In this document: in pieces, positions 14,557 to 25,741 of the stretch
How positions within the stretch are numbered: the first letter of the stretch is position 1
How the letters are laid out: each line of letters opens with the position of its first letter
Assembly (NCBI GenBank): GCA_012728975.1
Contig: JAAYDZ010000016.1
Span: forward strand, 1-64,000
Reading direction: 5' to 3'
Source of the DNA: Bacteroidales bacterium
Lineage (GTDB): Bacteria > Bacteroidota > Bacteroidia > Bacteroidales > UBA932
Length of the DNA stretch: 64,000 bases
Program-made: the position numbers and the translations under genes
Notes under the pieces: generated by a model
Seen by the model: the letters and a program-made list of their open reading frames with translations, nothing else
Database searches by the model: none
What the model was told of the DNA's origin: nothing

Positions 14557-15579
14557 TCAAAATAGTAAATTTTCCCTGCCGGGAGGTTTTATTCCAAGAT
14601 GATTATAGGCAAGTTCCGTTACCACCCTACCACGCGGAGTACGAGAAATAAATCCCTCCTTAATTAAAAAGGGTTCATATACCTCCTCTAAAGTACCTAC
14701 ATCCTCACTTATTGCTGTCGCTATCGTACTAGCTCCCACCGGACCTCCTTTAAATTTTTCTATAATAGTTGTTAAAATCTTATTATCGATGGCATCCAAA
14801 CCCCGCTTATCTATATTTAAGGCATTCAGGGCTATACGCGCAATCTCCAGATCTATAATACCGGTACCTTTAACCTGCGCAAAATCTCTCACTCTCCGGA
14901 GTAATGAATTTGCAATTCGGGGAGTACCGCGGCTACGTAAAGCTATTTCCCATGCAGCATCTTCATTAATTTCTATATCAAGAATAGAGGCACTGCGGAT
15001 GATAATCCTTTTTAAAACTTTTGCATCATAATACTCCAGATGTGATTTTATACCAAACCTTGCCCTCAAAGGAGAGGTAAGAAGTCCGCTGCGTGTAGTA
15101 GCTCCTATAAGCGTAAATGGATTGAGTACTATCTGTATAGAGCGTGCTCCGGGACCCTTATCTATCATTAAATCTATGGTATAGTCCTCCATTGCGGAAT
15201 AGAGATACTCTTCCACTATTGGTGAGAGACGGTGAATCTCATCTATAAAGAGTACATCCCCTTCTTCGAGGGAAGTGAGAAGTCCCGCAAGATCCCCTGG
15301 TTTATCCAGAACAGGACCGGAGGAAATTTTCATATTAACACCGAGTTCATTGGCTACAATATGGGCCAGAGTAGTCTTACCTAAACCGGGAGGACCATGC
15401 AAAAGTATATGGTCAAGAGCCTCTCCTCTGAGAAGTGCTGCCTTTACAAAAATTTTAAGATTTTCTATAACTTTGTCCTGTCCGGCAAACTCCTCAAACT
15501 CCCTTGGACGTATTTGCCCCTCAATATCGCGTTCTTTGGCAAAGGATTCCTCCCTCGGATCAAATCTTTCTTTACTCAT
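14557..15579 (-). CDS. ruvB: Holliday junction branch migration helicase RuvB
   Basis: [57 protein letters not shown] motifs. Confidence 0.97.
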
Positions 15580-15660
15580 ATCTGACGGTGTTGCCTTGTC
15601 GGCATTTTAAACAACACAAAAATAAATAATATTATTTAATAAAGTATTATTGTAATTATT

Positions 15661-15830
15661 AGTGTGTTGATAATGTGGATAAAATTTATAGGTTAATTAT
15701 AAAAAATATATTGACATTTTATAAACATATACATACCTTTAATATTGCAGTTTTAAATTGATTTGTTGATAGTGTTAATATCCTAAAATATTTTTTTCAA
15801 CAATAGTCTTGTGTTGATAGTGTTTGTAAA
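15661..15830. promoter_or_regulatory. AT-rich region with three tandem pairs of DnaA-box-like 9-mers (candidate oriC)
   Basis: TGTTGATAA|TGTGGATAA (15665-15682), TGTTGATAG|TGTTAATAT (15764-15781), TGTTGATAG|TGTTTGTAA (15812-15829), all in the same orientation; TGTGGATAA is the complement of the perfect DnaA box TTATCCACA. Confidence 0.45.
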
Positions 15831-15929
15831 AGAATTGAAAAAGGAGTTTGCGGAATTTATAACTATTTTTAAGGAGTTGTTTTTTAAATAAAGTTATCAA
15901 ATAGTATAAACATATAATCAACTGTTATT

Positions 15930-15957
15930 AAAAAAAAATGGGGCCGAAACCCCATTA
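15930..15957 (-). terminator. Rho-independent terminator of frdB
   Basis: AATGGGG-CCGAAA-CCCCATT stem-loop; on the minus strand followed by a long T tract. Confidence 0.8.
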
Positions 15958-15987
15958 TTTTTAATATTAGTCGTTGGCCATTCGTAA

Positions 15988-16773
15988 CTAGTCTTTTAAC
16001 TTAGCTGAAAGAAATTCACGGTTAAGTCTGGCGATATGTGCTATAGTGATACCCTTAGGACATTCCAGTTCACAGGCACGGGTATTTGTGCAACTACCAA
16101 AACCAAGTTCATCCATTTTGGCTACCATTAATTTTGCACGACGCGCCCCTTCAATTTTACCCTGAGGCAGAAGAGCAAGTGAACTTACACGAGATGCTAC
16201 AAATAGCATTGCAGAGCCATTTTTACAAGTAGCAACACAGGCACCACAACCCACACATGCCGCTGCATCCATACTTTCGTTGGCTTTTTCTTTCTGTACT
16301 AGGATTGCATTTGCATCAGGAGCGTTGCCGGCATTTACCGATATAAATCCACCTGCCTGGAGTATCTTATCAAATGCTCCTCTGTCTACAACAAGATCTT
16401 TTACAACGGGAAAACCACGGGTTCTCCAAGGCTCTACGGTAATAGTCTCACCATCTTTGAATTTGCGCATATAGAGTTGGCAAGTGGTTATTTCATCGTC
16501 TGGACCATGTGCACGGCCGTTGATGTAGAGCGAGCATATACCGCATATTCCTTCACGACAGTCGTGGTCAAATGCCACGGGATCTGCTTTTTTCCCTTTA
16601 CATCCTTTGTTGACTGCCACAGGATCTATGCCTTCATTAATAAGTTGTTCGTTGAGAATATCCAACATCTCGAGGAAAGATGTACCTGGAGAGATGTTTT
16701 TCACTTTATAGGTTTCAAAATGACCTTTACTCTTGGCGTTTTTCTGGCGCCATATTTTTAATGTAAAATTCAT
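15988..16773 (-). CDS. frdB: Succinate dehydrogenase/fumarate reductase iron-sulfur subunit
   Basis: [22 protein letters not shown] (2Fe-2S) and [15 protein letters not shown] / [15 protein letters not shown] (Fe-S ligands). Confidence 0.92.
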
Positions 16774-22953: not shown

Positions 22954-23299
22954 ATCAGTAATTTATTTTGATTGTCCAATTTGTAAGGTCTATGACCTTC
23001 GAACCGTAAAAATAATAAGAAAAAATCATTTATAACAAATTTTTGTTGATAATTTTATATTTATCTTTTTATGGTCTTTATAATCAGGACGTTACACAAT
23101 CAACCTCTTTTATAAAATTGTTAGTAATTCATATGTGGTATCATTTTAGTGCTCATCTCAAGAGCTTTACAATCCTAATTTTCGAACTTGTTTCAAATTA
23201 TAACATTTTTATTAAAATTTTACCATATAACACTCTATTTCACTATTTTTGCTGCAAAAAATAAGCCATATTTCTCTCAAAACTCAATTCAGTAAAGCA

Positions 23300-23752: not shown

Positions 23753-25741
23753 ATGAAAACACCGCTATATGACATAATAGTAATAGGTGCGGGTCACGCA
23801 GGTTGCGAAGCTGCTGTGGCAGCAGCACGAATGGGTTCTAAAGTTTTGCTCATAACAATGGATATGAACAAAATAGCCCAAATGTCTTGCAATCCCGCAA
23901 TAGGAGGAATTGCTAAAGGTCAGATTGTATGTGAGATCGACGCTCTAGGTGGGTACTCTGCAATTGTTACTGATGCTTCAACAATACAATTCAGAATGCT
24001 TAACCTTTCTAAAGGTCCGGCAATGTGGAGTCCACGTGCTCAATGTGATAAACTCCATTTTTCCATGAACTGGCGTTACATTCTTGAAAACACCTCTAAT
24101 CTAGACCTTTGGCATGATATGGTGACCTCTTTAACCTTCCGAGAATCCAATATTTATGGTGTTCTCGTCTCTATGGGTGCAGAATTTCATTGTAAAAGCG
24201 TTATTTTAACTGCGGGCACATTCCTTAACGGCAGACTTTATATCGGTAATGAGATGGTTGATGGTGGAAGGATGGGTGAGTCGCCATCCCTTGGGCTTAC
24301 CGAACAACTCTCCGAAATGGGGTGTACTACGGCAAGAATGAAGACAGGTACTCCACCAAGAATTGATGCAAGGTCTTTGGATCTCTCTAAACTAATTATG
24401 CAAGAATTAGATCCCAACCCTTCCAAGTTTTCATATCTACCTTTTAAAACAGGTATCCAGAGGGGTAAACCCCAAAAGCCCTGTTACATTGTCCATACAA
24501 ATAAGTGTGTTCACAACATTCTCAGGACTGGTTTCGATGAATCTCCACTTTTTCAGGGAAAGATTACCGGCATCGGACCTCGTTATTGTCCATCCATTGA
24601 AGACAAACTGCGTACTTTTGCCGGTAAGGACTCACACCAACTGTTTCTTGAACCTGAAGGATGGAATACCCATGAATATTATCTGCAAGGATTTGCTTCA
24701 TCCCTTCCCTTAAGGGTGCAGATGGATGCTTTACAAGAAATAGAGGGACTTCGTGGAGTCAAGATATTCACACCTGCATATGCTGTAGAGTATGATTTTT
24801 TCGATCCTACCGAACTATGGCCGACACTTGAGTCTAGAATCATACCTAATTTTTATTTTGCTGGGCAAGTAAATGGTACGACCGGTTACGAGGAGGCAGC
24901 AGCTCAAGGACTAATGGCGGGTATTAATGCTCATCTAAAACTTAATGACAAGGAGCCTTTTATTCTTAAAAGAGATGAGGCATACATAGGTGTTTTGATT
25001 GACGACCTTATAACCAAAGGCGTTGATGAACCTTATAGGATGTTCACTTCTCGTGCTGAATATCGTATTCTTTTAAGACAAGATAACGCTGATATTCGTC
25101 TTACAGAGATGGGATATAAACTCGGCCTTGTAGATCAATTCAGGTATGAATATACCAAGCTAAAGTATGATACCATCTCTACATACGTAGATTTTTCTAA
25201 TGCTACTTCGCTTAGCCCAGAAGACATCAATGATTACCTTAGAGCCATAAACAGCGCAGAAATCGCTACAAAGAAGAAAATTTCAAACCTTTTAACTCGT
25301 CCTTCAACTTCAATCAAGTCTCTCCTTAAAAATGTTCCACGTGGAACATTTATCGATTCAAATCTTTCTGAAAAATTAGCAGTTTTATCATCAATTAAAA
25401 CAGAGCAAATCCAAAACCTTTTAGAAATGCCCTGGGGCAAAACAGCCGGCAAAGAGGAAATAGATCCTGAATATGTGTATGAAGAGGTGCTCCAGTCAGC
25501 AGAAATTAGCATAAAATACCAAGGCTATATCGAACGCGAAAAGGCTATAGCTGACAAATTAAGACGTTTGGAAAATCTCAGAATTCCTGAAGATTTTGAT
25601 TTCTCAAAAGTAGCTTCTCTTTCTATGGAGTGCCGAATAAAACTCAATAGGTATCGCCCACGAACAATTGCCCAAGCCGCACGAATTTCAGGCGTTTCTC
25701 CAGCGGATATACAGGTTCTTTTGATTTATTTTGGAAGATAA
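23753..25741 (+). CDS. mnmG: tRNA U34 carboxymethylaminomethyl modification enzyme MnmG (GidA)
   Basis: DIIVIGAGHAGCEAAVAAARMG, MSCNPAIGGIAKGQIVCEIDALGG, RPRTIAQAARISGVSPADI. Confidence 0.97.
   Translation: MKTPLYDIIVIGAGHAGCEAAVAAARMGSKVLLITMDMNKIAQMSCNPAIGGIAKGQIVCEIDALGGYSAIVTDASTIQFRMLNLSKGPAMWSPRAQCDKLHFSMNWRYILENTSNLDLWHDMVTSLTFRESNIYGVLVSMGAEFHCKSVILTAGTFLNGRLYIGNEMVDGGRMGESPSLGLTEQLSEMGCTTARMKTGTPPRIDARSLDLSKLIMQELDPNPSKFSYLPFKTGIQRGKPQKPCYIVHTNKCVHNILRTGFDESPLFQGKITGIGPRYCPSIEDKLRTFAGKDSHQLFLEPEGWNTHEYYLQGFASSLPLRVQMDALQEIEGLRGVKIFTPAYAVEYDFFDPTELWPTLESRIIPNFYFAGQVNGTTGYEEAAAQGLMAGINAHLKLNDKEPFILKRDEAYIGVLIDDLITKGVDEPYRMFTSRAEYRILLRQDNADIRLTEMGYKLGLVDQFRYEYTKLKYDTISTYVDFSNATSLSPEDINDYLRAINSAEIATKKKISNLLTRPSTSIKSLLKNVPRGTFIDSNLSEKLAVLSSIKTEQIQNLLEMPWGKTAGKEEIDPEYVYEEVLQSAEISIKYQGYIEREKAIADKLRRLENLRIPEDFDFSKVASLSMECRIKLNRYRPRTIAQAARISGVSPADIQVLLIYFGR
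25333..25348. promoter_or_regulatory. parS: parS centromere-like site (ParB-binding palindrome) inside mnmG
   Basis: TGTTCCACGTGGAACA, a perfect 16-bp palindrome matching the parS consensus TGTTNCACGTGNAACA; encodes VPRGT within NVPRGTF. Confidence 0.85.

Follow-up and report, generated by a model that had tools for sequence, protein, structure and literature searches.

A putative chromosomal replication origin between ruvB and frdB, unlinked to dnaA, in a Bacteroidales genome

The window considered here is the whole 64,000-nucleotide stretch of DNA that was analyzed (G000:C4:1-64000), and it belongs to a 1.83-Mb assembly of an uncultured Bacteroidales bacterium in 76 contigs. The RuvB encoded in the window is 95% identical to the RuvB of the Bacteroidales MAG JAAZMM010000052. 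Between ruvB and frdB lies an intergenic gap that a first-pass annotation, made from the letters alone, had described as about 400 bp long and very rich in AT. The gap indeed measures 408 bp with an AT content of 76.7%, which rises to 80.7% within the annotated positions 15600-15935 and compares with 56.7% across the whole window. The features of the gap and its surroundings are as follows.

14557..15579, minus strand: ruvB, origin-flanking gene (Pfam RuvB_N, 1.2e-76)
15580..15987, no strand: putative oriC, the AT-rich intergenic ruvB-frdB region
About 15613-15925: functional core of the putative oriC
15613..15664, no strand: candidate DNA unwinding element (DUE) flanking box pair 1 towards ruvB, one of the window's least stable 50-bp segments
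15617..15624, minus strand: probable -7 element of the ruvB promoter, TATTTTTG, proposed from sequence
15665..15682, plus strand: box pair 1, TGTTGATAA and TGTGGATAA, two perfect DnaA boxes, abutting
15683..15762, no strand: second candidate DUE, separating box pair 1 from box pair 2
15719..15727, minus strand: single weak box TTATAAACA, one mismatch, orientation opposite to the pairs
15764..15781, plus strand: box pair 2, TGTTGATAG and TGTTAATAT, abutting, second half weak (two mismatches)
15794..15802, minus strand: single box TTTTCAACA, one mismatch, orientation opposite to the pairs
15812..15829, plus strand: box pair 3, TGTTGATAG and TGTTTGTAA, abutting, second half weak (two mismatches)
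15890..15901, minus strand: invariant segment AAAGTTATCAAA on the frdB side, a probable further box, identical in all four aligned congeners
15937..15956, minus strand: intrinsic terminator of the frd operon, facing the gap (8-bp stem and T run)
15988..16773, minus strand: frdB, fumarate reductase iron-sulfur subunit, origin-flanking gene (Fer2_3, 5.8e-22)
22954-23248: AT-rich gap separating a tonB-like gene from ybeY-mnmG, which diverge from it; a single TTATCAACA box lies at 23044
23753..25741, plus strand: mnmG (gidA), named from sequence, on the far side of the conserved block and containing the parS site
25333..25348, no strand: parS-like perfect palindrome TGTTCCACGTGGAACA, 9.7 kb from the ruvB-frdB gap

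According to nearest-neighbor energies, the lowest duplex stability in the window falls in the ruvB-frdB gap at 50, 100, 200 and 300 bp, and the least stable 50-bp segment starts at 15679. The gap thus provides a predicted AT-rich unwinding element next to the boxes, one of the expected components of an oriC. The gap also carries signals of transcription. The -7 consensus of Bacteroidota promoters is TAnnTTTG, and CAAATATA is enriched in the gaps upstream of ruvB in the family (26 of 41). On the other side, two terminator-like sites were found where shuffled sequences yield 0.2, and the frd terminator probably keeps frd transcripts out of the origin.

Three abutting pairs of DnaA-box-like 9-mers in one orientation, with one 9-mer being the perfect complement of a DnaA box, had been reported by the first-pass annotation. 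Both statements can be verified by direct reading: the pairs start at 15665, 15764 and 15812 and run head-to-tail on the plus strand, and the 9-mer spanning 15674-15682 complements TTATCCACA exactly. The gap contains six boxes that depart from TTATCMACA at no more than one position, compared with an expectation of 0.61 +/- 0.76 from 1000 dinucleotide shuffles (maximum 4), and this intergenic cluster is thus above chance. Three tandem pairs were counted against 0.0005 expected in shuffles, a figure that demonstrates clustering rather than discovery because the pair pattern was derived from its own instances. Apart from the three pairs of the gap, TGTKGATARTGTKNRTAW has no exact match anywhere in the 1.83-Mb genome, and two exact copies of TTATCMACA within 500 bp are found at only two genomic sites, the ruvB-frdB gap and C4:84587. 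Moreover, the gap is the highest-scoring DnaA-box window of the 115.7-kb contig, and it holds a conserved single box, GTTATCAAA, near 15893.

Conservation was examined first by alignment with the closest relatives. Pair 1 is recognizable and largely kept in three relatives (TGTTGATAATGTGGATAA, TGTTGATAATGTTAATAA and TGTTGATATTGTGGATAA), the TGTTGAT-TGT-TATA pattern of pair 2 is kept, and pair 3 is degenerate with its outline preserved. The exact 18-mer pattern is too strict for tracing across the family, as it occurs in 11 of 150 genomes with several matches in coding DNA; a pair lies beside ruvB in five other genomes, and the remaining matches fall within coding sequence or at other sites. 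The origin was instead traced through the clustering of boxes. Among the 41 gaps upstream of ruvB in the family, TATCAACA is present in 37 (1.7 expected) and TTTCAACA, which corresponds to the box at 15794..15802 and is among the most enriched 8-mers, in 32 (3.1 expected), and 34 of the 35 ruvB gaps outside this set lack boxes of the TTATNMACA type. The named loci were assigned to the family by ruvB and frdB similarity rather than by a tree. In every one of the 40 family loci, the strongest box window lay in the 700-bp region upstream of ruvB, in contrast to 4 of 32 outside. The position of the cluster is thus conserved among relatives, and the comparison of sister species, which could have overturned the first-pass reading, has upheld it. 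In eight of nine long family stretches, the box window ranked first is the ruvB gap; in the ninth, that of the congener G016, the first-ranked cluster is displaced by one gene and separates hflX from a hydrolase gene, and the gap upstream of ruvB itself is without boxes. TTATCAACA is the dominant box type in the family. Among 113 TGTTGATA anchors, the only preferred spacing between neighbors is 8-9 bp in the same orientation; therefore, the abutting pairs are real but not universal.

Raw GC skew is misleading in these genomes owing to a strong gene-strand bias, and we therefore used the skew of third codon positions, split by gene strand and corrected for it. On its own, GC skew cannot locate an origin more closely than about 10-20 kb. 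We sampled two single-contig chromosomes of different genera, G078 and G004, in blocks of 20 kb, and each switches from negative to positive within about 20 kb of ruvB. In G078, where ruvB is at 1494 kb, the strand-averaged skew is mostly negative from about 420 to 1440 kb; it is mostly positive over the part of the chromosome that starts at 1500 kb and extends round to about 380 kb. Blocks near 840-900 kb and near 1740 kb depart from this trend. In G004, the switch occurs at 660-680 kb and ruvB is at 672 kb. The best break in the contig of the window is at 15.5 kb, within an approximate set of 14.0-17.5 kb. The family loci agree when pooled, with a significant side effect of 0.054 at ruvB (95% CI 0.036-0.070) compared with 0.011 outside the family (-0.015 to 0.038). 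Thus, the skew also could have spoken against an origin at this position, and it has not. The signal is weaker in some members: the best break is 8 kb from the gap in G093, it is 16 kb away in G016 with a small effect and a wide bootstrap, and gene-strand bias swamps the replication signal in G015 and G145.

The surroundings of the gap are also those anticipated earlier, with a parS site about 10 kb away (9.7 kb, within mnmG) and the left-hand genes on the minus strand (gene calling gave no plus-strand gene over 15 kb on that side). Palindromes resembling parS occur 5-16 kb from ruvB in nine of nine family genomes, with one further match at G093:C35, and they lie in or just after mnmG wherever coordinates are comparable. 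In family loci where both were found, ruvB and ybeY-mnmG are about 5-13 kb apart.

This arrangement raises the question of whether replication in fact starts from a different gap of this 10-kb block, the best candidate being that upstream of ybeY-mnmG (22954-23248), with the ruvB cluster serving as an accessory DnaA-binding site. The mnmG/gidA gene is a classic origin neighbor. The ybeY-mnmG gap adjoins the parS-bearing mnmG, is about 76% AT and ranks with the window's least stable 300-bp segments, and the skew break of G093, at 97 kb, has ruvB on one side (88.7 kb) and ybeY on the other (99.4 kb). However, the break set of the contig of the window excludes 23 kb, and in the genomes compared this gap has at most one strong box. 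Across the family loci compared, box scores are 0-3 upstream of ybeY and 4-12 upstream of ruvB, with the exception of G016, in which the cluster is one gene away. With fewer boxes, the mnmG gap is the weaker candidate, and we consider an origin there improbable.

A second alternative is that the boxes form a DnaA-responsive regulatory element of ruvB, or of frd, and not an origin. The cluster is directly upstream of ruvB in nearly all family members and probably overlaps the ruvB promoter, and a comparable repeat is found upstream of a ribonucleotide reductase gene. Nevertheless, gene regulation would not account for the skew switch or for the linkage to parS. In addition, the box cluster of G016 is one gene away while the gap of ruvB itself is empty, and a purely ruvB-regulatory role is therefore unlikely; we give this explanation very little weight. 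Least credible of all, to the point of being negligible, is a titration or reactivation site of the datA/DARS kind that happens to adjoin the origin: such sites are also clusters of DnaA boxes, but the ruvB gap combines the strongest cluster of the contig with the lowest duplex stability in the window and a position at the skew switch, and its surroundings contain no origin candidate that looks better.

The proteins that would act at such an origin are encoded in the genome. The match between the DnaA and the solved DnaA chain 8btg is almost full-length, and domain IV of the encoded DnaA, with the signature GGKDHATV, resembles the solved DNA-binding domain 1j1v by sequence similarity and is thus predicted to recognize DnaA boxes. 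The helicase operator DciA is also encoded. The dnaA gene is distant from ruvB, by about 596 kb in G004, 777 kb in G078 and 1.04 Mb in the single-contig G011 (the shorter way round if circular), and in fragmented genomes it is on a contig other than that of ruvB, namely C76 in the genome of the window.

Because of the clustered boxes, the least stable DNA, the conservation within the family, the skew switch, the nearby parS sites and the presence of DnaA and DciA, we consider it highly probable, judging from sequence, that this Bacteroidales MAG has its chromosomal oriC in the ruvB-frdB gap, unlinked to dnaA. The earlier suggestion of a plausible oriC not adjacent to dnaA is accordingly strengthened by the relatives, the skew and parS, with dnaA 0.6-1.0 Mb away. 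We envisage that DnaA would load first on the strong pair TGTTGATAA/TGTGGATAA, spread onto the weak boxes of pairs 2 and 3, and melt the flanking AT-only stretches, after which loading of the DnaB helicase would be assisted by DciA. The core is probably insulated from transcription, by the frd terminator and by a ruvB promoter that points outward, and the new origins may be segregated by ParB bound to the parS site of mnmG.

As far as its sequence indicates, the oriC at ruvB is an ordinary DnaA-dependent origin, newly located and with the same arrangement across the family; the abutting box pairs at 8-9 bp and the preference for TTATCAACA are mild variants on a known kind of oriC. The oriC of E. 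coli contains TTATCCACA-type DnaA boxes beside AT-rich unwinding DNA with mnmG/gidA nearby, and the ruvB gap shares all three properties. In E. coli arrays, about 2 bp separate the 9-mers and many sites are of low affinity, whereas the pairs of the ruvB gap abut, TTATCAACA dominates the family and the flanking gene is ruvB. The oriC of Bacillus subtilis has DnaA boxes next to AT-rich DNA and a basal unwinding system. The boxes of the ruvB gap likewise adjoin AT-rich DNA, and the DnaA of this genome matches 8btg; in contrast, a simple test beside the boxes detected no DnaA-trio run of the basal unwinding system (the longest run was two triplets), and the origin is unlinked to dnaA. In Bacteroidetes, oriC is commonly far from dnaA (PMC4755523). 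The oriC predicted for chromosome I of Prevotella intermedia OMA14 is likewise a DnaA-box cluster at a skew transition away from dnaA (PMC4755523). That species belongs to another family, and the comparison covers boxes, skew and dnaA distance; the boxes of the ruvB gap differ in being mostly TTATCAACA-like and partly in abutting pairs.

Among open-licence papers, we found none that assigns an origin to this family and none that places ruvB beside oriC in Bacteroides. A putative origin is now assigned to a family represented here almost exclusively by metagenome assemblies, which allows correct orientation of the chromosomes and growth-rate estimates from read coverage (peak-to-trough), and the gap offers a sequence for autonomous-replication testing. 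It also represents a comparative case in which the origin stayed with mnmG and parS, with dnaA elsewhere.

A broader proposal can be offered only tentatively, and we regard it as possible rather than likely. The DnaA of this family may assemble on abutting pairs of TTATCAACA-type boxes phased at 8-9 bp, more tightly than on the E. coli array. The origin would be anchored to one end of a block, ruvB ... ybeY-mnmG(parS), whose members have remained together while dnaA is located elsewhere; the block may be an old origin neighborhood of a wider part of Bacteroidales. Outside the family, ybeY-mnmG is also less than 10 kb from ruvB in L090, L105 and L098, and L090 has a cluster of TTATCAACA/TGTTTATAA 0.5-0.9 kb upstream of ruvB. 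Therefore, the origin neighborhood may predate the family.

Several minor observations concern DnaA itself and boxes elsewhere in the genome. In the DnaA of this genome (L024:967-2403, minus strand), GGKDHATV of domain IV corresponds to GGRDHTTV in 8btg, and we speculate from this sequence difference that the T-to-A change might accompany the preference for TTATCAACA. A TTATCAACA box is located about 250 bp upstream of the dnaA start (G000:C76:23115-23123; L024:2654-2662) with a partial GTTGATAAT closer in, an arrangement that possibly reflects DnaA autoregulation. Finally, three copies of TGTTGATA with an exact 12-bp period occur at G000:C4:84587-84618 (L117:587-618), about 130-160 bp upstream of the gene for the ribonucleotide reductase large subunit (PF02867). 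Control of nrdAB by DnaA is known in E. coli, and by analogy the repeat possibly serves DnaA control of nucleotide supply. The repeat recurs in the same place with two or three copies in five other genomes of the same genus and with two copies in one genome of another genus.
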